This document shows, piece by piece, positions 8,452 through 32,656 of a DNA stretch of 35,303 nucleotides (position 1 is its first letter; every line of letters starts with the position of its first letter). The position numbers and the translations under genes were made by a program. The stretch is from assembly GCA_020437755.1 (NCBI GenBank), contig JAGQVX010000026.1, positions 1-35,303 of the forward strand. The letters run 5' to 3'. This DNA is from Flavobacteriales bacterium. Its GTDB lineage: Bacteria > Bacteroidota > Bacteroidia > Flavobacteriales_D > Sanyastnellaceae. The notes below the pieces were generated by a model. That model did not search any database and had not been told where the DNA came from. It saw nothing but the letters and a program-made list of their open reading frames with translations.

Positions 8452-9717
8452 CTACCTCGTCCCTATCAGCGCTCCGGGAGTGCCCGTTATTGAATTGGCT
8501 GTCCACACCGTTGTACCGCTGGAATTGGTGCCAAATCCGTAGGCCGTGCTTGAAGTGAAGACCACAATGCTATGACCGGCGCGGTCCCAACCGATGGGGG
8601 TACTGCCGGTGGCCTGAGCTACCCACGTATTGGAACCGGTGCTGAGCTTACCAAAGCCGTACAGCAAATCAGATGTTACCAACACAATCATACCGCTTGT
8701 AACTACGGCGTCGATCACGGGAGACGACAAGGTCTGAACAAACCAGGTGCTCGACGGAAAGGAATTGTTGCCAAAGGCATAGGCGTGGGTATCGGTATAC
8801 ACCACAATGGAACTATCATTGGCTACGGCACCTTGCACCGTGCCGGAAAGCTGCTGGGTGGACCAGGTATAAGAGGGAAACGAGTTTTGGCCATATCCAT
8901 AGGCGTACTCAGGAGTGTACAGGACAATCTTGCCGTTGTTGGTGGCCAGGTGTTCACAGTCTCCATCTACCAGTCCGGTTAAACCCTGTGGGCCTTGAGG
9001 TCCCTCCGGACCTGGGGGACCCGCCATACCGGTTTCTCCCTGCTCTCCCTGCTCACCTTGAGGCCCCGGGGCACCTTCAGCTCCGTTCAACCCGGGTTCG
9101 CCCTGAGGACCCGCCGGACCGAGCAGACTTCCTTGCAGCTCCCAGGAACTATTTATTTTATAATAATACATTCCGGTGCTGCTGTCGATATATACATCAC
9201 CATCGGCTCCATCCTCATCGTTGGGCGCAGTGTCTCCGGAAAGAATTGTCGCACCATCCATACCCGGTTCGCCCGGGATTCCTTGCGGGCCTTCCGCACC
9301 GGGTGGGGCGTTGAGCGCCAGGGTGGCCGTTTCGGCATGAAGGGCATATGGTACCGACATCAATTGCTGTTCTCCCAACAGCACAAATCCCTGTCCCAGG
9401 TCGAGCTCAATACGTGCAAAAAAGGTATGATCGCCCCAGGATATGGCGTCAAATGTCCCAATGGATTCAGCTCCTTCGCCGATGACAAAATTGACCAGCC
9501 CCAATTCATTGGACACCACATTGTGCTCTTCCTGATAGGCTGTTGGTCCGTTCATGCTGTCCTCCAATATCGACACACGAAACGTTCCCGCCTGGTTCAT
9601 GAGTAAAACGCCCTCATCATCGCGCAAAGCCGCCTGATAATTCACTCCCTGGGGAGTCTGACCTATTCCGGTTACTGCCACCAATAGGGCCAGCATGGTT
9701 TGTAGTATTCGCATCAT
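8452..9717 (-). CDS. collagen-like secreted surface protein with C-terminal four-fold repeat
   Basis: A 421-residue exported protein. A signal peptide ending in VTGIGQ is followed by a beta-rich N-terminal domain (about 20-130: TPQGVNYQAALRD through LMSVPYALHAETA) recurrent in Bacteroidota tail-fibre-like and collagen-like proteins. Gly-X-Y triplets occupy about residues 140-155 and again about 199-250, split by a YID/YYYK module. The C-terminal 165 residues hold four repeats of about 40-45 residues, each with a hydrophobic strand then AYGYG, AYAFG, LYGFG or AYGFG and a conserved Trp. This resembles a small beta-propeller or beta-solenoid. No T9SS tail is visible here, but the gene overlaps the stop of a T9SS type A gene by 4 bases. 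Probably a trimeric cell-surface fibre; the function is unknown. Confidence 0.75.
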   Translation of the reverse strand: MMRILQTMLALLVAVTGIGQTPQGVNYQAALRDDEGVLLMNQAGTFRVSILEDSMNGPTAYQEEHNVVSNELGLVNFVIGEGAESIGTFDAISWGDHTFFARIELDLGQGFVLLGEQQLMSVPYALHAETATLALNAPPGAEGPQGIPGEPGMDGATILSGDTAPNDEDGADGDVYIDSSTGMYYYKINSSWELQGSLLGPAGPQGEPGLNGAEGAPGPQGEQGEQGETGMAGPPGPEGPQGPQGLTGLVDGDCEHLATNNGKIVLYTPEYAYGYGQNSFPSYTWSTQQLSGTVQGAVANDSSIVVYTDTHAYAFGNNSFPSSTWFVQTLSSPVIDAVVTSGMIVLVTSDLLYGFGKLSTGSNTWVAQATGSTPIGWDRAGHSIVVFTSSTAYGFGTNSSGTTVWTANSITGTPGALIGTR

Positions 9718-15350: not shown

Positions 15351-18300
15351 TCAGTGTACCACAAGGTTTTGAGTTCTAACTTCGTGTTGGTTGCTGAAAA
15401 CAAGGATATATGTACCTGCATTCCAGCTGCTTAAGTCCAAAATGTTCTGCCCTTGAGCAATGCGTAGCTGATCTACCATTTGGCCTTGTGCCGTAAATAT
15501 ACGTACCAGGCCGGCCCGGGTTGCAAAGATTGTGCACGATTCCGCAGCCGGATTGGGATAAACCGCCAATTCAAGGGAATGAATGTCGCTTACATGGGTA
15601 TCAAGGTTCCAGCCTTCCACATTGTTGACAAACGTGCTGTTGTAGGCCGTGAACACTGCGCCACCCGTAGCGTGATTGTCCTCCAGCTCCAGGAACCAGC
15701 CGTTTACCTCTCCCGAAGTCTTCGAGAAGAAGGCCTCCGATCCCTGCTGACTTGAACGCACGATGATGTGCTCCGTATCAGTACCGGTGAGGTCGAGGTT
15801 GTCTACAAGGATGGTTTCTCCTGCCTCAAGCTGAATGGTTGATCCGGCCGCAACGCTGAGCTCGCCCATGGAGCAACTGCCCCAAATCGCACAAATTCCA
15901 TCCAGGTTGACCGTGGTATAGTCCAAACCTTCCGAGTAGAAAATTCCATCGCAATTGAAAGTGGTTCCTGCCACATCGAGGTTGGCTGCAGCCACCCCCG
16001 GATTCCAGGTGCCAACGGAAACAGTAGTGTTGTCCAGCAGGATGTCTCCCACCTGATCAGGATCAATGGAAAGCTCCTCATCCACATCTATCGCATAGCC
16101 CGCAGCGTCAAAAGGTCCTTGTTCGAAGATCAACTCCACACAAGCGATATTGCCTCCTGCCTCATGCGATCCTTCACCTGCAAATGTGACCGTACTGTTG
16201 GGTCCAAAGGACACGTTGGCTGTGTTGATCGTAGCTGCATCGGGGGTTGTGAAGCGTACGTTGTAGAGGTTGAGGTATACCTGAGCATCGGCTGTGAAAT
16301 CTTCATGAATGGTGATGGTGGAGTTTGAAGCCTGTATAAGAGCGGTTCCCATAGGGAGGTTCTCCATGCTCAAGCTACCACAGACGGCATTCAACGGGTC
16401 AATGTTTACGCTAAAGTCGGTGCCACTAAATGAGTTGGCATCAAAAATCACGTGATCAATAGACGATGGAAGCGCTACAGGATTCACCGCACCGCCTGAA
16501 GTAGTAGCCCAGTGAGAAAGATCCGACCAGTTTCCGGCATCGCCCACCCAGTAAAAATTCATGGGTTCCGGCTCCAAAATGTTCCAGCCTTCCACATTGT
16601 CGAGCTCAATACTCATACTTGCATTGAAGGTAGCCCCACCTGTGGCGTGATTGTCTTGCAAGGTCACGTACCACGCGTCAACCGTACCCGTCGATTGTGA
16701 GAAGAATGCCTCGGTACCCTCAGTATCCGAAAGAATTGAAATGGGCTGGTCGGGGGTTCCAACAATGGAGAGGTTATCGGTAGTAATGGTTGTGCCGGCA
16801 TCGATAAACAGTTCGGTACCGGGAGTTACCGTAAAGTACTCTGCATAGAAATCGGTCACTGTTGAAGCTTGATCAGCATCCATAATAACGTTGTAGTAAT
16901 CCATCCAGGTAGCGGTGAAGTTTCCTGTACAATGGATTGTTGTGTTGTCTACGGTGAAGAAATTGGCACCATTTCCCGGAGACCACAAGCGAACGGTAAC
17001 GTACGAATCAGAAAAATCTGCAACGTCGCCATAAGTGCCCGGAGCGGCAATTTGGAATGTTGCCGTAACATCATTTCCATCGGTATTGAAGAATCCGTCG
17101 TTAAACATCAACGTGCGCAGGTTCAATCCGGAAATCAGGTTATAGGTTCCACCACCATCAAACGTGAACTCCGCATTGTTTCCCAACGAGTTGTTCTTAC
17201 CGTCAATGGTTTCGGTTCCGAGTGAAAGGAAGTATACATCCACCATGTGGTATACACAATCGTCATCGGCCTCAAATGAGCCGTAGATGTTGAGCGACGA
17301 GTTGTACAGTTGATTTATGATCACTTCCGAAGGAATGCCCGACATCATGAGATCGTGAACGTTCATCAGTTCAGAATCCATCTCCAGGGTTCCTGTACCT
17401 CCCGGGAAGGAGTTACCATCAATAAACACATCGTCGATGGCCGTTGGAGGAGTAGTGTGGTAGGTGGTTCCCCCTGAGGTTGTAGCCCAGTGGTTCAACT
17501 CCGACCAGCTTCCGCTACCTCCTACCCAATAGTAGTCTTCGGGAACTGAAATCTGAATGTTCCATCCGGTGTTGTTTCCGAGGTCAATGCTATCGTCCGC
17601 ATTAAAAGTAGCCCCGCCCGAGGCGTTGCTATCTGATATCGTCATGTACGTGCCATTCACGCTACCCGAGGTTTGCACCAGGTAGGCTTGCTCTCCGGCG
17701 GTGAGCGATGCCAATACTACCGGGAGTTCGGCATTTCCCTGGAATTCAAACTGCTGGGCGGTTTGGGTAGTTCCGGCTGTCAGGTTGATCGACGAGCCGG
17801 GTGCTGCGATAAATTCATCAAATGAGTTGTATCCTGAAATGTTACAAGATCCGTAAAAAACCACTTTGTGATAATCGGCTCCCGCGCCGTTAAAGGTGTG
17901 GAAAATATTGGTTGATGATCCGTAAAAGATAGTCGCCTCATCCACGTCAATCACAGTGTTGTTGGAAGTGGTCACATCCCACAACTGGGTGTAAAAGTTG
18001 GATGTCCCAAGATGGAGCTCTTGGCCGGCAGGGGACTGACAATACAAGCGTTGCGAAGTATAAATCGGGTTGTCGTTGGAGTAGAAACGTCCGCCATATA
18101 CGTAGAGGTTGGCGGTAGACAATGAGTCGGTAAGGTTGTAGTCACCGTCTCCTGCCATTTGGAAGAAGCAGCTACCTCCGAGGTGCTTTTCTCCTGTGAC
18201 GATGGTAACCGTTCCGGAACCATGCATCTCAACGCCTTTGAAGTCGCGCTCCATCTCTGAAGGCACAATGAAATCGCCATATACCAGGAGGTCGTCGTAG

Positions 18301-18593
18301 AAACCATTGCCCTTCAATTTAGGGTTGTTGGTTACTCCGGTACAGTTCAATGTGTGGCATTCACTCACTTCCTGATCCATGGTCACAATTTGGTTGGTCA
18401 TGGTAAATGAGTTTGCATCGAAATACACGTCATTGTCGGGTCCGGGAACCTGCGAGTGAAATGTAGATCCTCCTGAAGTGGTGGCCCAGTGCGTGAGGTC
18501 CGACCAATTGCCTCCATCACCAACCCAGAAATAGTCCTGTGCTGAGATGGCTGTCGCAAATAATAAAAGAATAGCAGATAAAAGTGTTTTCAT
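15351..18593 (-). CDS. large T9SS type A secreted protein with three long repeats
   Basis: A 1080-residue exported protein. The signal peptide is MKTLLSAILLLFATAISAQ. Three repeats of about 330 residues each open with a Trp-rich block (DYFWVGDGGNWSDLTHWATT, DYYWVGGSGSWSELNHWATT, NFYWVGDAGNWSDLSHWATT), followed by DDVFIDGNSF-type text and beta-strand-rich sequence likely forming a beta-helix. The last 75 residues are a T9SS type A tail (LAVYPNPAAESCTIF to RTQNLVVH). I start at the ATG at 18593. The longer frame begins at GTG 18 codons earlier and would run into the dyad at 18643-18660. It lies just downstream of the response regulator gene, with an operator-like dyad between, so it is a plausible target of that regulator. 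Likely a surface or matrix protein; no enzyme motif was seen. Confidence 0.82.
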   Translation of the reverse strand: MKTLLSAILLLFATAISAQDYFWVGDGGNWSDLTHWATTSGGSTFHSQVPGPDNDVYFDANSFTMTNQIVTMDQEVSECHTLNCTGVTNNPKLKGNGFYDDLLVYGDFIVPSEMERDFKGVEMHGSGTVTIVTGEKHLGGSCFFQMAGDGDYNLTDSLSTANLYVYGGRFYSNDNPIYTSQRLYCQSPAGQELHLGTSNFYTQLWDVTTSNNTVIDVDEATIFYGSSTNIFHTFNGAGADYHKVVFYGSCNISGYNSFDEFIAAPGSSINLTAGTTQTAQQFEFQGNAELPVVLASLTAGEQAYLVQTSGSVNGTYMTISDSNASGGATFNADDSIDLGNNTGWNIQISVPEDYYWVGGSGSWSELNHWATTSGGTTYHTTPPTAIDDVFIDGNSFPGGTGTLEMDSELMNVHDLMMSGIPSEVIINQLYNSSLNIYGSFEADDDCVYHMVDVYFLSLGTETIDGKNNSLGNNAEFTFDGGGTYNLISGLNLRTLMFNDGFFNTDGNDVTATFQIAAPGTYGDVADFSDSYVTVRLWSPGNGANFFTVDNTTIHCTGNFTATWMDYYNVIMDADQASTVTDFYAEYFTVTPGTELFIDAGTTITTDNLSIVGTPDQPISILSDTEGTEAFFSQSTGTVDAWYVTLQDNHATGGATFNASMSIELDNVEGWNILEPEPMNFYWVGDAGNWSDLSHWATTSGGAVNPVALPSSIDHVIFDANSFSGTDFSVNIDPLNAVCGSLSMENLPMGTALIQASNSTITIHEDFTADAQVYLNLYNVRFTTPDAATINTANVSFGPNSTVTFAGEGSHEAGGNIACVELIFEQGPFDAAGYAIDVDEELSIDPDQVGDILLDNTTVSVGTWNPGVAAANLDVAGTTFNCDGIFYSEGLDYTTVNLDGICAIWGSCSMGELSVAAGSTIQLEAGETILVDNLDLTGTDTEHIIVRSSQQGSEAFFSKTSGEVNGWFLELEDNHATGGAVFTAYNSTFVNNVEGWNLDTHVSDIHSLELAVYPNPAAESCTIFATRAGLVRIFTAQGQMVDQLRIAQGQNILDLSSWNAGTYILVFSNQHEVRTQNLVVH
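15600..18540 (-). repeat. three protein-level repeats of about 985-990 bp inside the T9SS gene
   Basis: Repeat openings lie near 18540, 17545 and 16560 on the minus strand (approximate positions), each with the W-x-x-L-x-HWATTSGG signature, and each repeat ends with a TGGATFNA- or TGGAVFTA-type stretch plus a W-N motif. Spacing is about 990 then 985 bases. Nucleotide similarity is only local, so the duplications are old. Confidence 0.7.
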
Positions 18594-18642
18594 GGTACGC
18601 GTCAATTTGTAGTCAAATCTCCGACAGTACCTTCGCTCTGTC

Positions 18643-18660
18643 TTCACCCGATTGGGTGAA
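18643..18660. promoter_or_regulatory. 18-bp dyad TTCACCC-N4-GGGTGAA upstream of the triple-repeat T9SS gene
   Basis: TTCACCCGATTGGGTGAA has perfect 7-bp arms around GATT. It lies 49 bases upstream of the T9SS gene's ATG and 21 bases from a -7-like GAGATTTG (18614-18621, minus strand), so it covers the -33 region where an activator would sit. No U-run follows in the minus direction, so it is not a terminator for the response regulator gene. It matches the dyad at 21251-21268 in 16 of 18 positions. Confidence 0.6.
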
Positions 18661-18681
18661 TTTTGAGGTTTTTAGAAAAAT

Positions 18682-19302
18682 TCAGCTGAGTAGTTGATTG
18701 AGTTTGAACATCACTTCGGTCCGGTTTCGGACGTCCAGTTTGTCGTAAATACGCAGCAAATGGGTTTTCACGGTGTTCACAGAAAGAAATAGCTCTTCGC
18801 TAATTTGCTTGTTGGTGCTTCCTTTCTTGACGAGGTTGAGGATTTCAAATTCACGCTCCGAAAGCGGATTGGGAATATGCTCGTTGACATATCCAATGGT
18901 GAGCTCCCGTTGTCGGGGCGCATTGTTCATGTGGTTGAACAGGGCGATTTCCAGTGAGGTCAATAAATCGGCTTCATCGAAGGGTTTGAGCAGGTACCCT
19001 GCCGGACGTGTTTCCTTCACACGTTCAATGGTTCCGCGGTCGGAGTGGGAAGTGAGGAAAACAAAGGGAATTCCATACAATTTATTGATGGCATGCGCCA
19101 CATCAACGCCGTCGGGGGCTTCACCAAGATTGATGTCGAGGAGGACAGCATCGGGGGTGTTTTCGTGCAATAAACGAAGCGCCTGCGCGCCGCTGTAGGC
19201 AATGCCACTCACCACGAAGTTCACCGATTCAAGGTGTCCGGCGATATCCTCTGCCACGAGGGGTTCATCTTCTACAATCAATATTCGAATTGCGCTGCTC
19301 AT
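18682..19302 (-). CDS. LuxR/NarL-type response regulator
   Basis: A 206-residue two-domain regulator. The receiver domain (about 5-125) has the acidic pair at ILIVEDEP, the phospho-acceptor Asp56 in AVLLDINLGE, the Thr/Ser switch FLTSHSD and the Lys in YLLKPF. The C-terminal LuxR-type helix-turn-helix (about 144-200) is PLSEREFEILNLVKKGSTNK followed by QISEELFLSVNTVKTHL. Its ATG overlaps the kinase stop by 4 bases, so the two are translated together and form a cognate pair by context. Phosphorylation would drive dimer binding to DNA. The 18-bp dyads at 18643 and 21251 are the obvious candidate sites, which is inference. Confidence 0.9.
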   Translation of the reverse strand: MSSAIRILIVEDEPLVAEDIAGHLESVNFVVSGIAYSGAQALRLLHENTPDAVLLDINLGEAPDGVDVAHAINKLYGIPFVFLTSHSDRGTIERVKETRPAGYLLKPFDEADLLTSLEIALFNHMNNAPRQRELTIGYVNEHIPNPLSEREFEILNLVKKGSTNKQISEELFLSVNTVKTHLLRIYDKLDVRNRTEVMFKLNQLLS

Positions 19303-21218
19303 GCCGCTTTGAACTTCTTAACGGTTAGTCGGGAGGTTGTTCCATGATCGGAAATCACTTCAAAACTAGCTCCCAGTTTTTCGGAAAATGCGCGGATCAT
19401 CTTCATCCCAAAACCGTCCCCTTCCAATTGTTGGGGATCGAGTCCGATGCCATCATCCGACACTTCCAGTCTCAAAATACCGTTTTCCTGCTTTAAAGTT
19501 ACGTTCAGGGTTCCCTCATTTTGCTCAAAGGCGTACTTCAGGGAATTGCTGATCAATTCATTCAGAATCAACCCCAGGGGGATCAGGGTGTCCACATCCA
19601 GCGAGATAGCGTCAATTTCCTTCACCAGCTTAACCCGCTCCTGATCAACCCGGTAAGATGAGAACAGACTTTCCACCAACTTGCCGATATACGTGCGCAC
19701 ATCAACATGGGTCAGATCATCCTCCCGGTATAAATCCTGGTGGATCAGCGCCATGGATTTCACCCGATTACGGCTCTCGTTCACAGCCTCCAATGCCTTG
19801 GCGTCTTCAATACCTCTGCTTTGAATACTCAACAGTGAAGACACCACTTGCAGATTGTTTTTCACACGGTGGTGAATTTCACGCATAAGGATTTCCTTCT
19901 CCTCCAGCGATTTCTGAATAATCCCCTTCTGGTGGGCCAATTTTCGATTGCTACGCACGGTATTCCAAACAGCAAAGGTCAGCACCAACAGGACTACCAC
20001 GGCCAATACCATCCCCCACATCAAATAGGTCTTTTGACGCTCTTCTACGGCCAGTTTCAGTTGCGATATTTCCAGTTCCTTTTCGCGTTCGGCGGCATTA
20101 AAGGATTCCCGCATTTTCTCCATTTCCTCTACGCGCTTCTGGTCCATGAGGTCATAGCTGCCTTCAATATACCCGTGGTACCAGTCGGCTGCGGACTGGT
20201 AATCTCCCATCGCATAAAAGGACTCGGCTCCAAACAAGCGCACGTCATTTAACGCCTCGGTTCGGTCGGTGTTCTCCAGCAATTCCCATGCTTCCCTGAA
20301 GTATACTAATGCTTCTTCGTACTTACTTAAACCGTTCTTGATCCGGCCCATCGATATGAGCAATTCGGGCAATTCTATGGTTTGTGGCAGTAAGTTTCGG
20401 TCAGTTAAGGCATTCGCCAAATGGGATTCAGCTTCGGTAAGGTGATTGAGCTTGAAGTGCGCAATTCCCATCGACGCCCGCACCGAAACCACCTCCCCCG
20501 CCATTTCATTTCGCGCATACAGCTCCAGTGCCCGATTCAAATAATCCAGCGCCTGCACTTCATCTCCAAGGTAAGAATACGCCAAACCAATATTGTTGTA
20601 GGTGTTCGCCAGTCCCTTTTCATCGCCCTGTGCTTCTTTGATCGAAACCGATTTCTGGTAAATTTTAATGGCGTCTTCGTAGTTCCGCTGCATGCGGTAA
20701 ACCACCCCAATATTGTTGATGGTTTGCGCAGCTTCGTCCTCCAGCCCATTGTTTTCCCAATACTCAAGGACATCGAGGTACCATTTCAGGGCATTGACCA
20801 AATCCCCGGCATAGAAATATGAAACACCTATAGAATTCATGGTGTTTCCAATCCATTGCACGTTGCCCTCCTCCTCAAATAATTTTCGGGCTTCCAATTG
20901 ATGCTTCAGACACGAATCTGTTGCACCCGCGAGATCATGAGCAATACCCAATCCGTAGTGGGCCCTTCCCTGCCAATGAATATTTCCATTCGACTTCGCA
21001 AGATTCAACGCGTCCCGACCGACCTCAAAGGCTTGTTCACTGCCCTCCAGGTTATAGTCCGACATCAAATTGTACATGCCCCAAAAACGCGCAGAATCTC
21101 CCCGAGCAGATTCAATCACGTTGAGCAGGCTATCCTGATATTCGGTTTGTCCCAATGACGGAATCAGTATGCACCACACCAACAACATCATCAGAAGCGA
21201 CTTCAATGGAGAAATCAT
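19299..21218 (-). CDS. TPR-containing sensor histidine kinase (HisKA_2 type)
   Basis: A 639-residue kinase. A signal peptide ends IPSLGQ, and residues about 40-340 are tetratricopeptide repeats (for example NNIGVVYRMQRNYEDAIKIY and NNIGLAYSYLGDEVQALDYL) that would sit in the periplasm. A short coiled coil (RVEEMEKMRESFNAAEREKE) leads to one membrane helix near 396-418. The cytoplasmic part has the HisKA_2 box MREIHHRVKNNLQVVSSLLS with its phospho-acceptor His near 447. A HATPase domain follows with LGLILNELISNSLKYAF and DDGIGLDP. TPR sensor kinases paired with LuxR-type regulators are common in Bacteroidota. The signal is unknown. It is first in a two-gene operon and has a dyad 32 bases upstream of its ATG. 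Confidence 0.92.
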   Translation of the reverse strand: MISPLKSLLMMLLVWCILIPSLGQTEYQDSLLNVIESARGDSARFWGMYNLMSDYNLEGSEQAFEVGRDALNLAKSNGNIHWQGRAHYGLGIAHDLAGATDSCLKHQLEARKLFEEEGNVQWIGNTMNSIGVSYFYAGDLVNALKWYLDVLEYWENNGLEDEAAQTINNIGVVYRMQRNYEDAIKIYQKSVSIKEAQGDEKGLANTYNNIGLAYSYLGDEVQALDYLNRALELYARNEMAGEVVSVRASMGIAHFKLNHLTEAESHLANALTDRNLLPQTIELPELLISMGRIKNGLSKYEEALVYFREAWELLENTDRTEALNDVRLFGAESFYAMGDYQSAADWYHGYIEGSYDLMDQKRVEEMEKMRESFNAAEREKELEISQLKLAVEERQKTYLMWGMVLAVVVLLVLTFAVWNTVRSNRKLAHQKGIIQKSLEEKEILMREIHHRVKNNLQVVSSLLSIQSRGIEDAKALEAVNESRNRVKSMALIHQDLYREDDLTHVDVRTYIGKLVESLFSSYRVDQERVKLVKEIDAISLDVDTLIPLGLILNELISNSLKYAFEQNEGTLNVTLKQENGILRLEVSDDGIGLDPQQLEGDGFGMKMIRAFSEKLGASFEVISDHGTTSRLTVKKFKAA

Positions 21219-21250
21219 ATTGTAAAAATGCCAAATTCCCGCCGCTTGGC

Positions 21251-21268
21251 TTCACCCGAAAGGGTGAA
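21251..21268. promoter_or_regulatory. 18-bp dyad TTCACCC-N4-GGGTGAA upstream of the kinase/regulator operon
   Basis: TTCACCCGAAAGGGTGAA has perfect 7-bp arms around GAAA, flanked by a second pair of inverted arms CTTGG (21245-21249) and CCAAG (21274-21278). It sits 32 bases upstream of the kinase ATG and within the 278-base region shared with the divergent giant T9SS gene. It is not downstream of any gene, so a terminator role is excluded. Autoregulation by the response regulator is the simplest reading. Confidence 0.6.
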
Positions 21269-21406: not shown

Positions 21407-21496
21407 CAAATTAAAAAGAAATTGTAACCAATTTGATTGGAAACGTATACACGAGCAACTTATAACTATTCACTGCACGTGAATAAACTCTTTCGT

Positions 21497-24400
21497 ATGG
21501 TATCTGCCCTATATCACCACTACCGAAAGGCGCTGTCAATGGCGTTGTTCGGTTTGCTATGTACAGCAACATTCGCGCAGTTCGACACTGAATTCTGGAT
21601 GCCTCCTATCTGGAACTCTGGTGTTTCCTCGCAAAACAACCCTTCGGAGTTGTTCATTACAACACCGTATCCCACTCCGGTAAATGTCCACATCGAAACC
21701 CCCGATGGGGTCACTTTCGTGTTGGATACAACTGTAGTTTCGGGTGAACCACTTTCGGTGCCACTCACTCCTAGTTTGGGTCAAACGCAACAGTACAACA
21801 CGGTGATAACCAACAATGGCTTCCTTGTTACTTCCAATGCACCTATACAGTGTGTGCACAAGGTCGCGGGTCAGTTCAACCAAACCCTTGTGACTTTGAA
21901 AGGACCCAACGGACTGGGACAAGAATTTTACTGCGGAAGCCAGGTGCGAAACATGAACGCAATGTATGGTACCCAGGAGCACCACTTCATTTCGGTAATG
22001 GCCCTGGAAAACAATACCACCATCACATTCGACACCCCTTACAACATGTATGACGGTGGCGGCACATTGGCCAATCCCTTTGTGTTGACCCTTGACCAAT
22101 ACGAGTGTTATCTCATTCGCGGAAATGGTCCTACGCAGCACGTTGCAGGTGCTCATGTGACCTCCGACAAAGACATTGCGGTAATTTCAGGATCAACCCA
22201 TACCCGAATCCTCGGTGGAGGTGCGGCAGATGGTGGGGTTGACCAATTGGTTCCTATTGAGCTCATGGGCAAGGAATTCGTTTTCATCAAGGGAGATAAC
22301 AACGTTCCTTTTGACTACGCCATTGTAATTGCCACTGAAGACAATACAGCCATCTATCTCGATGGTTCGGCAACTCCTCTCACGACAATCGACCAGGGTG
22401 AATACTACGATATTACAACTACGGGTTCATTTGGAGATGCGCATTACATTAAAACCGACAAAGTAGCCTATTGCTATCACGTTACAGGCGCGTCATTGGA
22501 CGATGAAGTAGGAATGTCGGCATTACCTCAAATTGATTGTACAGGAAGCCGATATATCGAATTCTCAAAATTCGCATCAAATGCCAGCAATCAAATCATG
22601 AACGTGATTTGTCCGCCGGATGCTGAGCCAACATTGGAATTCAACAACATTTACTACCAATCCGTTCCCGGAGCCATTTATGGAAGCGTTCCCGGAAAAC
22701 CGGGGTGGATCAGTGTTTCTTTTCCCAACTCAGCCCTGCAAGATGACAACCTCTTGACTTCAGAAGGTTTTTTCCATGCCGGTTTCCTTACCGGTAATGC
22801 CGGCTCATCGGGTACTTATGGATTTCTCTCCGGATTCAACGATGCTTTCGAGTTTCTTGATCCAAATTCAGGTTTGCCAACAACCATTTACATGGTCGAT
22901 ACACTTTGTGGCGGACAAACCATTGATCACTGTCTTGAAGTATTCTCGTGTGGAATCGATCACAACATCATCGATTTTGAAGGAAACGACGGTACCGTGG
23001 TAATTACACCTGCCAGCACTCCTTTTGACACGTGTTTTTCATACACAGCTCCATTTAACTACAGCGGGCTGGATACCATAACGTTTACCGTTGACAACTC
23101 TTTCGGATTTACAGGTTCAGTTGACGTGGTGTTTATGGTGGTTAACCCCAATACACCCATTGATGCCGGACCCATTCAAGAATTGTGTTCGGAGACCACC
23201 GGTACGTTGAGTGCTATCAACCCTGACCCATGGGTGGATGGATACTGGACGGTTCTGGCCGGCGGTGCAACATTGGTAGATCCCAATTCACCTACCACTC
23301 AAGTCACCAACCTCTCCCTGGGAACCAATACGTTCCTGTGGACACAGGATTACGGGTGCCAAACAAAATTTGATATTACCCAAATCATCGTCTATGATGG
23401 AACCGCACCTGTCGCCGACGCCGGTGACGATGTAGATCTTTGTTCCGATGACAATACGTTTAACATGCAAGCTAATGACCCGCAGTTCACTGCTACGGGA
23501 ACCTGGGAAATCATACTTGGATCAGCAACTATTTGGAATATCAACGACCCGAATGCTCTGGTAACCAACCTCGGCATTGGTGAGAACATCTTTGAATGGA
23601 ATATCGACAATGGTCCCTGCCCGGGTGGTAGTACTGTCGATGCCATGTCCATTTTTGTATTCGATCAAAACCACCCTCAACCCGATGTGGGTCCGGATCA
23701 GGATTTCTGTTCCGATGCCTTCACATCTGCATCCGTCTCCGTGACCGAACCTATTTTCCCCGCAGTGGGACAATGGGAACTCGTAAGTGGGTCGGGTGAT
23801 ATCACGGATCCGCTTGACTTTGAAACAACGATCACCAACTGCGGGATAGGGGAAAACGTATTTGCCTGGGTCATCGACAACGGCCCTTGCGGTGAGTTGA
23901 GCGATACCCTTACCATTACCATCTATGACAGCGGTGTGGCCGCTGCCGACGCCGGAACGGGAACTCAATACTGTACCCCAACAACCAGCCACATCATGGA
24001 TGCCGCAGAACCTGCCGGACCCGGACAGGGAACATGGACCTTGATTTCTGGGGCGGGTGTTATAGTAAGTCCCAACGATCCCACAAGTGTGATCAACAAC
24101 CTCGCCGTTGGAGATAATATCTTCCAATGGACAATCGATAATGGTCCGTGTGCGAATACCGGTGACTTTGATCAGGTAACCATTACCATTTTCGACGAGA
24201 GTCAGGATTTGGCGGATGCCGGAACTGACCAGGAATTTTGCGCTGCCGGATTTGTAAACGCGCAACTTGATGCCAGTGAAATCATTTATCCGGGAGAAGG
24301 ATTGTGGACCGTTGTAAGTGGAACAGGAACCTTTGCCGATCCCACCGACCCCAACACCACCGTATCCGGACTGTCGGTTGGATCCAACGTGTTCCAATGG

Positions 24401-27400
24401 ACCGTAGGAAACGGCCCATGTAACTTCCCAACGCTGGACACTGTTGAAATTGTCATCTTCGACGACAACCAAAACCCTGCCGATGCGGGTCCTGATGTGT
24501 CGTTCTGTACCCCTACTTCAACGTACGTCATGCAAGCAGTGGCTCCAACCTCACCCTCGGTGGGTGAGTGGACACTGATCTCCGGTACAGGAACCATCAA
24601 CAACGTAAACAACCCCAACTCGAATATTTCCGGATTGGGAATTGGAGAAAACATTTTCCGCTGGACGATCCTGAACGGACCTTGTCCCGGAAGTTCAAAT
24701 TTCGATGAGGTTTCGATTTTCATATTTGACGAAAACGCCCCTGCAGCCGATGCAGGTGACGACCAGGAATGGTGCTCTGATGCAGCTATTCCCGTAAATA
24801 TCAACCTGGCAGCTAATGCACCCATTTTCCCCGGCACGGGAATGTGGACCTTGATTCAGGGTTCCGGTACGATTGTAGATCCTACCGATCCCAACACGGC
24901 TGTAATGGTACTGGGTGAGGGTGAAAACATCTTTGAATGGCAAATCGACAACGGACCCTGTCCGCCCAACGTGTCAACCGATCAGGTTTCCATTTTTGTA
25001 TATCCATGGAACCAGGCCGCCGCTAATGCCGGTCCGGATCAGGATATTTGTTCCGACAACCCAACCACAGTGCTTGCTGCCAACAGCACTACCTTCCCGG
25101 CATCGGGAATGTGGAGTGTGGTATCAGGGAGTGGAACCTTCGCTGATGCCAGCGACCCTAACACTACAGTTTCCGGATTGAGTGTGGGTATTAACGTTTT
25201 GGAATGGACCATCGACAACGGTCCCTGTGATCCCTCAACAACGAGCGATCAGGTTACCATTTTGGTATTCGATGCCAGCCTAGCATTTGCAGATGCCGGT
25301 TCAGACCAAACCATCTGCTCAAGCGCGGGAAGCATCATCATGTCTGCCAACGATCCGGTAAACCCTGCTACGGGAGTGTGGACTGTTATTTCAGGTTCGG
25401 GAGACTTCTCGGATGCCAACGATCCGGAAGCTACCGTCACCAACCTCAGCGTGGGTACGAATGTATTCCAATGGACTGTGGATAACGGACCATGTTCGGG
25501 ATCAACTTTCGATCAAATGACTGTTGTGGTATATGATGCTACATCCCCTGCTGCCAATGCAGGTCCAAATCAGTCGCTCTGTACACCTACGACTTCGACC
25601 AACCTTGCCGCCAACACTCCGGTTTCCCCTGCGGTGGGAACATGGACCCTGGTATCCGGCACGGGAACCATATCCAATGCCAATGATCCGGGAACGCTGG
25701 TTACAGGACTGGCAGTGGGAGCGAACGTATTCCAATGGTCGATTAACAACTCACCTTGTGCTCCGGCCACGACGGTAGATCAGGTAACGATTTTCGTATA
25801 TAACGGCACGGCCACAACAGCTCTGGCTGGAAGTGATCAGGAATTCTGTACACCGGTTTCCTCGACTCTGCTCAATGGAAATGCTCCGGTTTATCCAGCC
25901 ACCGGTGTGTGGACGCTGGTATCGGGAAGTGGAACCATTGTTTCACCTTCCAACCCCAATACGCAGGTTACCGGTCTGGCTGTTGGAGAAAATATTTTCG
26001 AATGGACCATCACCTCCGGACCTTGCGCGGTTTCGACCAGTTCGGACCAGATGTCGGTATTTATTTATGACAACAACCAGGCTCCGGCCAATGCCGGTGC
26101 CGATCAGGAATACTGTTCCGATGTTACTACAGCCACGATGGCTGCCAACGCAGTGACCTTCCCGGCCACCGGCTCGTGGACCCTCGTGAGCGGAACAGGA
26201 GTCTTTGACGATCCTTCCGACCCAAATACGGGTGTAAGTGGCTTGACCATAGGAACCAACGTGTTCCAGTGGACTATCGATAATGGTCCGTGTGGTGCAC
26301 CCACCAGCGACACCATGACCATCCTGATCTACAATGTTTCCGCACCCAACTCGGATGCGGGTCCCGACCAGGATTTGTGTACGCCCACTACCTCTACTAC
26401 CATGAGTGCCAACGTAGCTGAAGCTCCGGCTGTAGGTACGTGGTCATTGGTGAGCGGCTCCGGATCGATTGCCAATGTAAACGACCCGAATACAGCTATA
26501 ACCGGACTCGGTATTGGCGAAAACGTATTTCAATGGACGCTCAACAACGGCACCTGTTCGGGCGGTGAAACTTCCGACCAGGTGATCATTACCGTGTTCA
26601 ACAGCGCCCAGGCGAATGCCGCTGCAGGAATTGACCAAAACTTGTGTACTCCACAAACCTCAACATTCCTCAACGGAAACAACTACAGCTTCCCTGCACA
26701 AGGAACCTGGTCGCTCGTATCCGGTTCAGGAACCATTGCGGATCCCAACGATCCTCAGACCGAGGTAACTGCTCTTGCTATTGGTGAAAACATATTCCAA
26801 TGGACCATTACCAACGGGCCCTGTGCCAACTCGTTGACCACCGATCAGGTGTCCATCTTTGTATTTGATGGTGGTGCGCCGCAAGCAAATGCAGGCATTG
26901 ATCAGGAGTTGTGCTCGCCAACCACCACAACCGTGATGACTGCTGACGCAGCCGTTTCACCGGGAACAGGTGTTTGGTCGCTCATTGGTGGAACAGGAAC
27001 CATTACCACTCCGTCTGATCCGAATACAGGAATTACCAACCTCTCGATTGGTGTAAACACCTTCGTGTGGACCCTCGACTATGCTACATGTGGTACCCAG
27101 TCCGACACGGTACAGGTGATTGTTTACGACAGCACGGTACCGGCTGCAGAAGCCGGCCCCGATCAGGAGCTGTGTACCCCTACTAGTTCTACAGCTCTCA
27201 ATGCCGATGCTGTCAATGCACCGGGTTACGGAACCTGGTCGCTCGTTTCCGGAAGCGGAACGTTTGCCGATGCCAACGATCCGGGAACCACCGTGGACAA
27301 CCTGAGTGTGGGAGAAAATATTTTTGTGTGGACGGTTTACAACGGACCTTGTCTGCTTGCACCTGAAACCACCGACACCATCAGCGTCTTTGTATTTGAC

Positions 27401-30400
27401 GTGAATCAGGCATCCGCCAATGCGGGGGCTGATCAAGAATGGTGTACGCCAACCTCATCGACATTCCTCGATGGAAACAGCATAACTTTCCCGGCCATAG
27501 GAACCTGGACCTTGATATCCGGTAGCGGAACGATTGCCGATCCAAACGACCCGGAAACCGAAGTCACCGGCCTTGCCGTGGGAGAGAACGTATTTCAATG
27601 GAGTGTAGATAACGGTTCATGTGCCGGCGCATTGACTACCGATCAGGTTAGCATCTTTGTGTACGACCAAAACCAGCCTGCGGCCAATGCCGGCCCCGAT
27701 CAGGAGTGGTGTACGCCAGTCGCTAATATTTCACTGGCGGGAAGTTCGGTCACGTATCCGGGATCGGGTGTATGGACACTCGTTTCGGGAACAGCCACCA
27801 TTTTGGACCCCGCAAATCCCAACGCTACGGTAACCGGACTTGCTGTGGGAGAAAACATTTTCCAATGGACGGTCGACAACGGACCGTGCAGTCAGCCAAC
27901 ATCAGACGTGGTATCCATATTCATTTTCAGTCAGTTTAATGACGATGCCAACGCAGGTGCTGATCAGGAACTTTGTACTCCGGACGAGTCTACCAATCTG
28001 GCAGGAAATACTCCTATTTACCCGGCATCAGGAATGTGGACCCTGGTGAGTGGAAGTGGAACCATTGCCGAGCCTGCAAACCCCAATACGTTGGTTACAG
28101 GTCTGACCATTGGAGAGAACATTTTCATGTGGACCGTGGATAACGGACCTTGCGCCAACGGCGTCACGACCGATGTCGTATCCATTTTCGTATTCGATGC
28201 CAACGCACCTTTGGCGAATGCCGGAGCCGACCAGGAATTCTGTACTCCTGTAAGCTCAACATTCATGGACGCTACCGATCCGGTGTTCCCTACTTCGGGT
28301 ACGTGGACCCTCGTATCGGGAAGTGCAACCATTGTGGATGCCAACGATCCTCAAACTGAAATTACCAACCTTGCCTTTGGAGAGAACATCTTCCAATGGA
28401 CGGTTTACAACGGACCCTGTTCAACAACCAACAGCACCGACCTGGTGAGTATATTCATCTTCGATGAAAACCAGGCCGATGCCAATGCCGGTGCTGACCA
28501 GTTGATGTGTATGCCTCAAAATACCACATTGCTCAATGGTAACCCTGCAATTTACCCTGCAACAGGAACCTGGACACTGGTCTCGGGAAGTGGAACCATA
28601 GTAAACCCATCCAATCCGAACACGCAGGTCACCAACCTGGGTATTGGCAACAATGTGTTTGCCTGGACCATTCTCAACGGGCCATGTGCTAATGCCACCA
28701 CTATCGATGAGGTGACTATAAGTGTATTCGACAATGAAATGATGGCCGCAGATGCGGGCCCTGATCAGGAATTCTGCATGCCAACCGATTTTGCGGTGCT
28801 CAATGGCAATACCCCGGTTGTTCCGGCTACCGGTGTGTGGACTCAGGTTCAGGGAACCGGTAATATTCTGGATCCTACCAGCCCACTGACTTCAGTGGTC
28901 AATCTGGGAATTGGTGAAAACATCTTTGCCTGGACAGTAAGCAATGGTCCATGTGGAACGACTGAAGATCTGGTATCAATCTTTATCTATGACCCGGCAG
29001 CGCCAGTGGCCGATGCAGGAGCCGATCAGGAGTTTTGTACTCCGGTGAGTACCACCGTTATGACTGCCAATACACCGGCTGATCCCGGTGTGGGAACCTG
29101 GGAACTCATCGGCGGAAACGGAACCATCCAAAACGTCAACAACCCATCGACCAACATCTCCGGTTTGACCATTGGGGAGAACATCTTCACGTGGACCATC
29201 TATAATGGCCCATGTGCGGAACCTACGGTAGATACGGTTTCGATCTTCATTTTCGACGAAAATGCACCCGATGCCGACGCCGGCAACGATGTGGAAATCT
29301 GTCTGCCCCTTAATGAGGTTCAAATGGATGCCAATGCGGCCATTTTCCCTGCACTGGGAACATGGACCCTCGTAAGTGGATCAGGAACTATTGTAGATCC
29401 GAATGACGAAAACACCATGATCACCGGATTGGGATTGGGTACCAACACGTTTATGTGGACCCTTGACAATACTCCGTGTAACGAAGGAATTACCAGCGAC
29501 ACCGTGGATATTCTCGTATTCGAGGAAGAAATCGATCCGATCTATGCCGGACCAGACCAATTCCTGTGTACACCGGTTACGACTGTACTCATGGCGGCTG
29601 ATGCTATTTCCGATCCCAATACGGGATTTTGGACGGTTGCCGATGGAACAGGCGTCTTTGGTGATGCCACCGACCCCAATACGATTATAAGCGGACTTAC
29701 CGTGGGAATCAACCAGTTTGTGTGGCACGTTGATAACGGTCCGTGTACCATGAATATGTATACCGACACGGTGGACGTGTACATCTACGATGAAGCGCAC
29801 CCTGCAGCCGATGCCGGTCTGGATCAGGAGCTTTGTCTGCCTGTAAACACCACCGACCTCGATGGAAACCTTCCCATTGTTCCGGCTATTGGAACCTGGA
29901 CATTAATCGAGGGTAGTGCAACCATCGTAGATCCGAATGATCCGAACACGGATATTACTGACCTTGCCGTGGGTGTGAACACCTTTGTGTGGACTATAGA
30001 CAATGGCCCATGTGATAATACGATGACCGCCGATACAGTATCCGTACTCGTATTTGAGGAGGATGCCCTTTTGGCGAATGCCGGAGAAAATATTGAATTA
30101 TGTACCCCACAATCATGTGTAACGCTCAACGCTGAAACCCCTTCTTCACCTACAACAGGAACTTGGACGTGGGTAGAAGGCGGAGGAACCATCAGCGATG
30201 TGAATGACCCCAACGCGGAGGTATGTGCCCTTACCGTTGGCCACCATGTGTTGCAGTGGGAAATTTACAACGGACCTTGTACCAATAACTACAGCTTCGA
30301 CTTTGTAGAAATCGACGTGTACGATGCCAATGCCAACCCGTCCAACGCGGGTGAAGATCAGGAATTGTGCTGGCCAACTAACGCCACGGTGCTTGAGGCC

Positions 30401-31690
30401 GACATTCCGATGTTCCCGGCAGTGGGTACCTGGGATTTGATTGATGGTAGCGGATCCATTTCCGACCTCAACGATCCCAATGCCGATTTCACCGAACTCA
30501 GCATTGGCATCAGCATCCTTACCTGGACGGTTTATAACGGACCGTGCAACGAAATGACGATCGATACGGTTCAAATCAGCGTGTTTGACCCTATGTCGCC
30601 CAATGCAGATGCCGGGGAAGATCAGTGGTTCTGTACTCCATTTGGTGGAACCAACCTGGAAGGAAACATGCCTGCACCTCCGGCAACGGGGACGTGGACA
30701 CTCATTTCGGGATCGGCCGATATCGACAATGCTTCGGTCAATAATACTGCCGTGAATAACCTCGGCCTGGGCGAAAACATCTTCGTATGGACTGTGTACA
30801 ATGGCGCCTGTGCCAATTCATCAACATCCGATACCGTAAGTGTTTTTGTCAACGATCTCACTGTGGCGCAAGCTAACGCGGGAGCCGATTTATTCTTCTG
30901 TGGAGCCGTTGACTCACTCATGATGGATGGTAGTGAAACCATCGGAAATACCGCGTTTGGTGAATGGACGATCCTGCAAGGCGGGGGAACGTTTGCCAAT
31001 ACCGCCAATGAACACTCCATGCTGTACGATATACCTGTAGGTGTGAACGAATATGTATGGACCGTGGACAATGGAGCGTGCGGCATCTCGACCGATACCA
31101 TGCAAATTGTCATTTACGATCCTCTGCTCGATCAGGCCTTTGCCGGATTCGACGAGGAAATTTGTCAGGACGAATTTGTAGAATTCAACCTCGAGGCCAA
31201 TGCCGTAGAATGGCCGGCTACCGGATGGTGGGAAATTCTCGAAGGAGATATCGAAATCAGCGACCTGAACGATCCATCGGCTACAGTGCTCGATTTGGGA
31301 ACCATCCTTGAACCCCTCACTACCATTACCAACGTGCTCGTATGGACGGTGGACAATGGAGTGTGTGGCACTACTTCAGATACCTTGGTGTACGTCCTGG
31401 AAGACTGTTTAACGCTCGATATCCCCGATGCCTTCTCGCCCAATGGTGACGGTATCAATGATGTGTTTGAAATCCCCAATTTGTATAAGTATCCCAACAA
31501 TTCCCTGAAGATTTTCAACCGCTGGGGAATGCTCGTGTACGAGTCGGCGCCCTACTTTGAAAACTGGGATGGTACCTCTTCTCACCCGGCCACTATTGGT
31601 CAGGAGCTTCCGGTTTCGACCTATTACTACATCCTCGATCTCGGCAATGGTGCTGAGGCATTCACAGGATATATCTACCTCAAACGATAG
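21497..31690 (+). CDS. giant T9SS type B adhesin: IgGFc-binding-like domain, 31 tandem modules, gliding-motility C-terminal domain
   Basis: A 3397-residue protein from the ATG chosen here. The longer frame begins 20 codons earlier at TTG; the ATG gives a signal peptide ending LLCTATFAQ. Residues about 30-460 resemble the IgGFc-binding N-terminal domain of Bacteroidota surface proteins (DTEFWMPPIWNSG, a central ISVMALENNTTITF block, HVTSDKDIAVISGS). One Ig-like or cadherin-like domain with four cysteines follows, then 31 modules, then the CHU_C/TIGR04131 tail (IPDAFSPNGDGINDVFEI, IFNRWGMLVYES, FTGYIYLKR) that marks type B cargo. Such cargo needs PorP/SprF-like partners, and one is encoded 12 bases downstream. 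Role inferred: a very long, disulfide-stiffened surface filament for adhesion or gliding. The reading frame is intact throughout. Confidence 0.93.
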   Translation: MVSALYHHYRKALSMALFGLLCTATFAQFDTEFWMPPIWNSGVSSQNNPSELFITTPYPTPVNVHIETPDGVTFVLDTTVVSGEPLSVPLTPSLGQTQQYNTVITNNGFLVTSNAPIQCVHKVAGQFNQTLVTLKGPNGLGQEFYCGSQVRNMNAMYGTQEHHFISVMALENNTTITFDTPYNMYDGGGTLANPFVLTLDQYECYLIRGNGPTQHVAGAHVTSDKDIAVISGSTHTRILGGGAADGGVDQLVPIELMGKEFVFIKGDNNVPFDYAIVIATEDNTAIYLDGSATPLTTIDQGEYYDITTTGSFGDAHYIKTDKVAYCYHVTGASLDDEVGMSALPQIDCTGSRYIEFSKFASNASNQIMNVICPPDAEPTLEFNNIYYQSVPGAIYGSVPGKPGWISVSFPNSALQDDNLLTSEGFFHAGFLTGNAGSSGTYGFLSGFNDAFEFLDPNSGLPTTIYMVDTLCGGQTIDHCLEVFSCGIDHNIIDFEGNDGTVVITPASTPFDTCFSYTAPFNYSGLDTITFTVDNSFGFTGSVDVVFMVVNPNTPIDAGPIQELCSETTGTLSAINPDPWVDGYWTVLAGGATLVDPNSPTTQVTNLSLGTNTFLWTQDYGCQTKFDITQIIVYDGTAPVADAGDDVDLCSDDNTFNMQANDPQFTATGTWEIILGSATIWNINDPNALVTNLGIGENIFEWNIDNGPCPGGSTVDAMSIFVFDQNHPQPDVGPDQDFCSDAFTSASVSVTEPIFPAVGQWELVSGSGDITDPLDFETTITNCGIGENVFAWVIDNGPCGELSDTLTITIYDSGVAAADAGTGTQYCTPTTSHIMDAAEPAGPGQGTWTLISGAGVIVSPNDPTSVINNLAVGDNIFQWTIDNGPCANTGDFDQVTITIFDESQDLADAGTDQEFCAAGFVNAQLDASEIIYPGEGLWTVVSGTGTFADPTDPNTTVSGLSVGSNVFQWTVGNGPCNFPTLDTVEIVIFDDNQNPADAGPDVSFCTPTSTYVMQAVAPTSPSVGEWTLISGTGTINNVNNPNSNISGLGIGENIFRWTILNGPCPGSSNFDEVSIFIFDENAPAADAGDDQEWCSDAAIPVNINLAANAPIFPGTGMWTLIQGSGTIVDPTDPNTAVMVLGEGENIFEWQIDNGPCPPNVSTDQVSIFVYPWNQAAANAGPDQDICSDNPTTVLAANSTTFPASGMWSVVSGSGTFADASDPNTTVSGLSVGINVLEWTIDNGPCDPSTTSDQVTILVFDASLAFADAGSDQTICSSAGSIIMSANDPVNPATGVWTVISGSGDFSDANDPEATVTNLSVGTNVFQWTVDNGPCSGSTFDQMTVVVYDATSPAANAGPNQSLCTPTTSTNLAANTPVSPAVGTWTLVSGTGTISNANDPGTLVTGLAVGANVFQWSINNSPCAPATTVDQVTIFVYNGTATTALAGSDQEFCTPVSSTLLNGNAPVYPATGVWTLVSGSGTIVSPSNPNTQVTGLAVGENIFEWTITSGPCAVSTSSDQMSVFIYDNNQAPANAGADQEYCSDVTTATMAANAVTFPATGSWTLVSGTGVFDDPSDPNTGVSGLTIGTNVFQWTIDNGPCGAPTSDTMTILIYNVSAPNSDAGPDQDLCTPTTSTTMSANVAEAPAVGTWSLVSGSGSIANVNDPNTAITGLGIGENVFQWTLNNGTCSGGETSDQVIITVFNSAQANAAAGIDQNLCTPQTSTFLNGNNYSFPAQGTWSLVSGSGTIADPNDPQTEVTALAIGENIFQWTITNGPCANSLTTDQVSIFVFDGGAPQANAGIDQELCSPTTTTVMTADAAVSPGTGVWSLIGGTGTITTPSDPNTGITNLSIGVNTFVWTLDYATCGTQSDTVQVIVYDSTVPAAEAGPDQELCTPTSSTALNADAVNAPGYGTWSLVSGSGTFADANDPGTTVDNLSVGENIFVWTVYNGPCLLAPETTDTISVFVFDVNQASANAGADQEWCTPTSSTFLDGNSITFPAIGTWTLISGSGTIADPNDPETEVTGLAVGENVFQWSVDNGSCAGALTTDQVSIFVYDQNQPAANAGPDQEWCTPVANISLAGSSVTYPGSGVWTLVSGTATILDPANPNATVTGLAVGENIFQWTVDNGPCSQPTSDVVSIFIFSQFNDDANAGADQELCTPDESTNLAGNTPIYPASGMWTLVSGSGTIAEPANPNTLVTGLTIGENIFMWTVDNGPCANGVTTDVVSIFVFDANAPLANAGADQEFCTPVSSTFMDATDPVFPTSGTWTLVSGSATIVDANDPQTEITNLAFGENIFQWTVYNGPCSTTNSTDLVSIFIFDENQADANAGADQLMCMPQNTTLLNGNPAIYPATGTWTLVSGSGTIVNPSNPNTQVTNLGIGNNVFAWTILNGPCANATTIDEVTISVFDNEMMAADAGPDQEFCMPTDFAVLNGNTPVVPATGVWTQVQGTGNILDPTSPLTSVVNLGIGENIFAWTVSNGPCGTTEDLVSIFIYDPAAPVADAGADQEFCTPVSTTVMTANTPADPGVGTWELIGGNGTIQNVNNPSTNISGLTIGENIFTWTIYNGPCAEPTVDTVSIFIFDENAPDADAGNDVEICLPLNEVQMDANAAIFPALGTWTLVSGSGTIVDPNDENTMITGLGLGTNTFMWTLDNTPCNEGITSDTVDILVFEEEIDPIYAGPDQFLCTPVTTVLMAADAISDPNTGFWTVADGTGVFGDATDPNTIISGLTVGINQFVWHVDNGPCTMNMYTDTVDVYIYDEAHPAADAGLDQELCLPVNTTDLDGNLPIVPAIGTWTLIEGSATIVDPNDPNTDITDLAVGVNTFVWTIDNGPCDNTMTADTVSVLVFEEDALLANAGENIELCTPQSCVTLNAETPSSPTTGTWTWVEGGGTISDVNDPNAEVCALTVGHHVLQWEIYNGPCTNNYSFDFVEIDVYDANANPSNAGEDQELCWPTNATVLEADIPMFPAVGTWDLIDGSGSISDLNDPNADFTELSIGISILTWTVYNGPCNEMTIDTVQISVFDPMSPNADAGEDQWFCTPFGGTNLEGNMPAPPATGTWTLISGSADIDNASVNNTAVNNLGLGENIFVWTVYNGACANSSTSDTVSVFVNDLTVAQANAGADLFFCGAVDSLMMDGSETIGNTAFGEWTILQGGGTFANTANEHSMLYDIPVGVNEYVWTVDNGACGISTDTMQIVIYDPLLDQAFAGFDEEICQDEFVEFNLEANAVEWPATGWWEILEGDIEISDLNDPSATVLDLGTILEPLTTITNVLVWTVDNGVCGTTSDTLVYVLEDCLTLDIPDAFSPNGDGINDVFEIPNLYKYPNNSLKIFNRWGMLVYESAPYFENWDGTSSHPATIGQELPVSTYYYILDLGNGAEAFTGYIYLKR
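23159..31417 (+). repeat. array of 31 tandem modules of about 266 bp (85-94 residues)
   Basis: Thirty-one consecutive modules, first at 23159, second at 23414, the 27th at 30074 and the last at 31136. The consensus is roughly A-x-A-G-x-D-Q-E-x-C-T-P, then P-x-x-G-x-W-T-L-V-S-G-S-G-T-I, D-P-N-D-P-N-T, G-E-N-I-F-Q-W-T-I-D-N-G-P-C, and V-S-I-F-V-F-D. One Cys near module position 10 and one near 70 are present in every module. At the DNA level modules differ widely in codon choice, so the array is old and kept by selection on protein sequence. Likely Ig-like beta-sandwiches, each closed by one disulfide. Confidence 0.92.
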
Positions 31691-31702
31691 TAGAATAAAA
31701 AG

Positions 31703-32638: not shown

Positions 32639-32656
32639 TCTGCCAAATTTGCTGAT

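Follow-up and report, generated by a model that had tools for sequence, protein, structure and literature searches.

A phased inverted repeat as the putative operator of a genome-wide regulon of a LuxR-type response regulator and TPR kinase in Flavobacteriales

In a 35,303-nucleotide stretch of a Flavobacteriales genome (GenBank assembly GCA_020437755.1, contig JAGQVX010000026.1, positions 1 to 35,303; hereafter the window), the genes of a TPR histidine kinase and a response regulator lie between two perfect copies of the inverted repeat TTCACCC-N4-GGGTGAA. These dyads are quite likely the operators of a genome-wide regulon governed by the response regulator of LuxR/GerE type whose gene they flank, under control of the TPR kinase. 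An earlier note on this DNA had already assigned them to the kinase/regulator pair, as a local regulon. The regulon is not local, and the pair is the best candidate, its binding to the dyads being predicted, because the dyads are kept in a genome of the same genus (G001), the sites track the regulator among relatives and sites found by pattern adjoin LuxR-type proteins. In environmental Bacteroidota, operators are, to our knowledge, seldom known together with their regulator. Here a strict rule at the DNA level comes with a candidate protein and a list of targets, so that one can test directly whether TPR kinases control secreted surface proteins, and such regulons would become predictable from sequence across the phylum.

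Two perfect dyads around a kinase/regulator operon

The dyads are found at 18643..18660 (TTCACCCGATTGGGTGAA) and 21251..21268 (TTCACCCGAAAGGGTGAA), neither being assigned to a strand, and the whole window holds exactly these two perfect copies. Dyad 1 is located 3' of the stop codon of the regulator gene, with 49 bases between its end and the ATG (18593) of the gene for a 1080-aa secreted protein with a type IX secretion system (T9SS) sorting domain, Por_Secre_tail (15351..18593, minus strand), of which it is the putative operator and which is thus a predicted target. Dyad 2 precedes the kinase/regulator operon as its putative operator; 32 bases separate its end from the ATG (21218) of the TPR histidine kinase (HisKA_2; 19299..21218, minus strand), predicted to be both partner and target. 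The predicted binder is encoded at 18682..19302 (minus strand) and combines a receiver with a GerE/LuxR helix-turn-helix (HTH) whose recognition helix reads NTVKTH.

The T9SS gene has a -7-like element, GAGATTTG (18614..18621, minus strand), that begins 21 bases past dyad 1 and places TTTG after 25 bases; the consensus is TAHHTTTG in the available part of PMC6847099. Its counterpart GGAATTTG (21232..21239, minus strand) begins 11 bases past dyad 2, one helical turn nearer its dyad than the rule described below, and the rule-fitting position before the kinase (21222-21229) reads ATTTTTAC. The earlier note had reported the two full copies and their uniqueness in the window, their placing before the kinase/regulator operon and the T9SS gene, and the common -7-like element with its two spacings one turn apart; all were confirmed. 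Matches with up to three mismatches number four in the window, an unremarkable count reached by 21 of 100 shuffles; it is the perfect copies that carry weight.

Genome-wide distribution and conservation

The source genome (G000; 3.78 Mb, 303 contigs, 98.99% complete) was compared with genomes of the same genus (G001), the same family (G002) and the order level (G037, G048, G050, G053, G057), among others. Expected counts were taken from base composition and the reversed pattern served as control. The genome search for the full repeat that the earlier note had proposed returned four perfect copies against 0.014 expected, with none for the control. Of the core TCACCC-N4-GGGTGA, G000 has nine copies spread over eight contigs (0.21 expected), G001 six and G002 four; what had been called a local regulon is a genome-wide set. 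Perfect 18-mers are present in four of 60 genomes (G000, G001, G002 and G045). The flanks of the copies are unrelated to one another. A 1-mismatch site at G001:C69 lies within a coding frame and was taken as chance. Since perfect copies in the window number just two and the mismatch count there is unremarkable, one might suspect that they match by chance or belong to a dispersed repeat; this is refuted by the genome-wide excess, seen without control matches, and by the phasing described below among unrelated flanks, the sites moreover recurring across Bacteroidota, and its probability is close to nil.

In G001, perfect dyads stand upstream of both the orthologous kinase (56% identical) and the orthologous T9SS gene (54%), four other open reading frames (ORFs) now lying between the latter and the regulator. 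When dyad and flanks are compared at the T9SS promoters of G000 and G001, as had also been proposed, the two arms are identical, and the differences fall in the four-base spacer and in most of the flanking bases. An orphan TPR kinase carries a dyad in G000 and in G001. Directly past the regulator stop, a site followed after 25 bases by TTTG or TTCG is found in G002, G037 and G048, whose regulators are 65%, 59% and 60% identical to that of the window; the G037 and G048 sites differ from the 18-mer at three positions. In G002 the regulator orthologue (L052, G002:C39, 5545-6156) contains an in-frame TAA inside the match and an open frame of 169 aa. It may be truncated or decaying, though the downstream site is kept.

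Promoter geometry

The promoter set consisted of the 19 core dyads of G000, G001 and G002, picked by the dyad alone, the start of one G000 gene (that of the HTH-only protein described below) being placed by eye. Eighteen of them end 32-94 bases before a start codon; the sole miss, at G000:C33, has no obvious target gene. A scan of both strands (38 in all) finds TTTG exactly 25 bases past the dyad in 11/19, whereas the other 55 offsets average 0.4 (binomial 1.6e-13; 9e-12 corrected for 56 offsets). Among the gene-oriented promoters (n=18), TT occupies offsets 25-26 in every case and TTTG is complete in 10. Of the two spacings given in the earlier note, 21 bases is therefore the rule over the 19 dyads and the 11 bases of the window kinase promoter the exception.

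Class-II activators bind at about -41.5, and by their fixed distance to TAnnTTTG, with TTTG at 25 in 11 of the 19, the dyads would lie near this position. In Bacteroidota the -7 element, TAHHTTTG, occupies -12 to -5 (PMC6847099, in the part available), and because TTTG follows after 25 bases the dyad would span about -51 to -34, with its centre at -42.5. The same part of that source describes the T at -12 as nearly invariant in Flavobacterium johnsoniae promoters. In the dyad promoters T is found at -12 in 3/18 and A at -11 in 13/18, a pattern as expected of weak, activator-dependent promoters. Three promoters (G000 C270, the G001 kinase and the G001 HTH-only gene) end in TTGY, which is the form of the F. 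psychrophilum SM5 box in the accessible portion of PMC9723704. At L162 (G050:C21, 10256-10273), TTTG is phased at about 25 on both sides of the dyad, an arrangement that would suit a single operator shared by two divergent promoters.

Dyad 1 follows closely on the regulator stop and its arms could pair into a stem, as those of an intrinsic terminator or RNA hairpin would. No T run follows it on the transcribed strand, however, and the copies are phased at a fixed distance upstream of the -7 element and also stand before divergent genes; a terminator or hairpin role was rejected on these grounds and is highly improbable.

The response regulator and its co-occurrence with the sites

The window regulator (206 aa) matches PF00072 (1.3e-20) and PF00196 (1.9e-18). 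A receiver followed by a GerE HTH is the architecture of NarL/FixJ (LuxR-type) regulators; with receiver and HTH only and no other long Pfam domain, the protein falls outside the MalT (STAND) family. The kinase, judged by eye, has a signal peptide, a TPR part and then a membrane helix. GerE matches number 15 in G000 and 16 in G001, and in the alignment the recognition helix of most of the other GerE proteins of these two genomes differs from that of the regulator, the nearest being NTVKAH (L202) and NTVKSH (L165).

The latter belongs to a paralogous TPR-kinase/regulator pair (L165, G000:C22), whose regulator is 49% identical. A degenerate site, CTCACCCGAAAGTGTGAG (7491-7508), lies just downstream of this pair and before the gene for a 1187-aa GBD_T9SS_assoc protein. 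The C22 pair is possibly a sister circuit.

Co-occurrence was examined in 59 relatives, with phased sites counted at up to one mismatch. Orthologues of the regulator were defined as full-length matches at E <=1e-40 and >=42% identity, a cut set after the list had been seen. At least one phased site is present in 9/9 relatives with an orthologue versus 10/50 of the others (Fisher 7e-6), and at least two in 7/9 versus 2/50. Outside the window's own family, sites occur in 5/5 genomes with the regulator versus 5/18 (0.007).

Several observations weigh against the assignment of the dyads to this regulator and its regulon. Sites are also found in those 10 of 50 genomes without an orthologue, G025 having four. 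At a threshold of 1e-28 the contrast becomes 9/12 versus 10/47 (Fisher 9e-4), the three genomes added being receiver-only matches without sites, and this and the other p-values are overstated since the genomes are related and not independent. No dyad with up to three mismatches is found in the 9-16 kb around the regulator orthologues of G006, G053 and G020, which have 1-4 phased sites each elsewhere in the genome. The window kinase promoter breaks the 25-base rule, with TTTG after 15 bases and TTAC after 25, and on neither side of the perfect dyad of G045 does TTTG stand at 25. Once mismatches are allowed, the reversed control gives matches too: 11 versus 41 for the true pattern with the full dyad at two mismatches, and 2, 7 and 3 versus 27, 14 and 13 with the core at one. 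Sites with at least two mismatches are for this reason distrusted individually.

A small HTH-only protein under the same putative operator

Short frames of 63-70 residues, little more than a GerE domain, directly follow a dyad in G000 (C249), G001 (C61), G002 (C39), G006 (C61) and G025 (C205), that is, in 5/5 family-f1 genomes where such a short frame was found, and they carry the same recognition helix as the regulator. Three of them are encoded at L040 (G000:C249, 6163-6375), L049 (G001:C61, 6237-6449) and L052 (G002:C39, 8902-9114). Before the HTH-only gene, TTTG stands at 25 in G006 and G025, and TTGA, TTGC and TTGG occupy 25-28 in the other three. These family-f1 proteins look autoregulated. 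G037 has a 66-residue HTH frame with a phased site past its stop; G046 has an 82-residue HTH frame and no listed site on its contig.

The dyads could accordingly be operators whose main binder is the HTH-only or another LuxR-type protein, the window regulator being a minor or non-binding one. The five dyad-preceded frames with the same helix speak for this, as does G025, where sites and an HTH-only protein occur without a regulator match. G025 is only 85% complete, though, and its regulator may be missing by assembly. A dyad also precedes the kinase operon, and the regulator tracks the sites in G037, G048, G050, G053 and G057, where no stand-alone HTH frame was found at E 1e-11, yet the 66-residue frame does lie beside the G037 site. 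This alternative is unlikely, and the two-component regulator is retained as the predicted main binder.

Sites across Bacteroidota

The pattern of dyad, 25 bases and TTTG was sought in 84,980 named genomes. It was matched 36 times, with about 7.5 expected by chance from simple arithmetic, and 24 of the matches are in Bacteroidota by title (Saprospiraceae, Crocinitomix, Lewinella and others). The other 12, seven of them inside ORFs, were taken as chance; one (L126) lies beside a GerE match, a weak one. Three G001 matches were dropped from the 24, leaving 21, in which the four sites inside ORFs (L129, L137, L146, L148) were retained. Seven of the 21 sites are at most 460 bases from a GerE protein (p 1e-9 to 2e-6, assuming 1-3% for a random point; the GerE counts of G000 and G001 give about 1%). 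L143, at the 5' end of the longest frame of its regulator, was taken as upstream. In six of the seven adjacent GerE proteins the recognition helix is NT(V/I)KTH, and in the seventh (L143) NTIKSY. The adjacent proteins are response regulators (L125, L143, L149) and TPR-LuxR fusions (L138 and L155, whose domains were searched); L147 and L150, long frames with a C-terminal GerE domain, are grouped with the fusions as candidates only.

An unrelated regulator, for example of the CRP/FNR, TetR or MarR type, would make the LuxR neighbours incidental. Some genomes do have sites without the window regulator, whose part as dyad binder is itself a prediction. Against such a regulator, the sites adjoin and co-occur with GerE proteins of one recognition helix, no systematic search for other families beside the sites having been made, and the half-site is the known one of MalT. 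We consider it distinctly improbable, somewhat more so than the HTH-only protein as main binder.

On a wider reading, regulators of three interchangeable builds, namely TPR kinase plus LuxR regulator, fused TPR-LuxR protein and autoregulated HTH-only protein, would recognise TCAYCC-N4-GGRTGA at its fixed phase to the -7 element in Flavobacteriales and Saprospiraceae alike, and so form a common switch for giant secreted surface proteins. The chances of this are about even. Among the matches listed in literature searches on the motif and on LuxR/TPR regulation in Bacteroidota the operator is undescribed, a weak negative.

Comparison with known systems

The MalT box of E. coli is GGGGA(T/G)GAGG, and the MalT operators of Actinoplanes read TCATCC-N5-GGATGA, overlap the -35 region and have their 3' end 34.4 +/- 1.0 bases from the start, according to the available part of PMC7567727. 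GGATGA and GGAGGA cores were found within the E. coli malP-malT intergenic region. As far as that part of the source allows comparison, the present operator shares with them the GGRTGA half-site, an inverted repeat that would be placed alike (core predicted at about 35 versus 34.4 bases) and the T(I/V)KTH helix: the E. coli MalT HTH reads TTIKTHIRNLYQKL, with the helix TTIKTH, and that of the window regulator NTVKTHLLRIYDKL. It differs from the MalT-type operators in its spacer (TCAYCC-N4-GGRTGA, against five bases in Actinoplanes), in its candidate binder, a two-component response regulator instead of a STAND ATPase, and in having a Bacteroidota -7 promoter and secreted surface proteins as targets. 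Because half-site, placing and recognition helix resemble those of MalT, the operator probably works like MalT's, though with a protein that lacks the other MalT domains. The data suggest a MalT-like recognition code common to two-component regulators, TPR-LuxR fusions and a tiny HTH-only protein.

Along its full length, receiver plus GerE, the window regulator resembles the NarL/FixJ regulators of solved structure ChrA, VraR and NarL (phmmer matches 4yn8, 7ve6 and 1a04), from which it differs in recognition helix and operator. The half-sites had been called typical of NarL/LuxR regulators; a LuxR-type binder is indeed favoured, but half-site and placing are nearer to MalT than to a generic NarL regulator. 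NarL heptamers read TACYYMT, unlike the half-site of the dyad. Bacillus GerE has 74 residues, and the HTH-only protein (62-70 residues; domain search made for G001) is like it a GerE domain with little else; unlike GerE, it has before its gene an operator probably recognised by its relatives. T9SS-related genes are under signalling control in the PorXY-SigP and alternative-sigma systems, where, in the parts of PMC7712824 and PMC9723704 available, a sigma factor acts on T9SS components; here a LuxR-type operator stands before cargo and surface proteins.

Proposed mechanism and predicted targets

In the proposed mechanism the TPR histidine kinase would sense a signal, as its topology judged by eye suggests, and phosphorylate the regulator, as domains and operon suggest. 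A dimer of MalT-like HTH domains would then bind TCAYCC-N4-GGRTGA centred near -42.5, the geometry, which would suit a dimer, being observed and the binding predicted. The bound regulator would stand in for a -33 element and bring RNA polymerase to weak -7 elements, most of them without the T that the consensus has at -12. This would switch on large surface proteins that are secreted or T9SS-associated, together with a second, orphan TPR kinase. The HTH-only protein would be a further target and probably feed back on the same sites. The kinase/regulator operon itself is perhaps a target, the sign of the effect being uncertain; its promoter departs from the 25-base rule, and autoregulation could therefore be negative.

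Besides regulators, the dyad targets are mostly large proteins with secreted-like starts, as judged by eye. The window target carries Por_Secre_tail. GBD_T9SS_assoc is found in targets on G000 C270, G000 C22 (degenerate site), G001 C138, G001 C5 (weakly) and G002 C39, and beta-helix/DUF1565 in those on G000 C27 and G002 C59. The target on G000 C243 (638 aa) has no Pfam match, that on G002 C15 is an AraC-type regulator, and on G000 C250 two small proteins without Pfam match precede a 1190-residue repeat protein. An upstream dyad is present at 2/2 GBD_T9SS_assoc genes of G000 (one degenerate), 2/5 of G001 and 1/3 of G002, counts that carry no p-value and leave the Por_Secre_tail background uncounted.

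The giant repeat protein and other neighbours

Divergent from the kinase lies the gene for a 3397-aa giant repeat protein (21497..31690, plus strand), an adhesin-like neighbour whose control region had been thought to include the kinase-side dyad. Control of this gene by the dyad is unsupported and was rejected: the adhesin has no phased dyad, TTTG being absent at 25 on its side of dyad 2, and a different block, TGTAACCAATTTG ... CGTATACACGA-CAACTTATAACTATTCAC, is strongly conserved with G001 in its upstream region (window 21425-21500). From this conservation the block is taken as a separate control element; by eye it was not evident in the G006 intergenic stretch.

The giant repeat protein gene is followed by a PorP/SprF gene and then an OmpA-type gene. 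This row (window 21497-34831) presumably resembles SprB/SprF adhesin modules. Elsewhere in the window, a 421-residue protein with collagen triple-helix repeats is encoded at 8452-9717.

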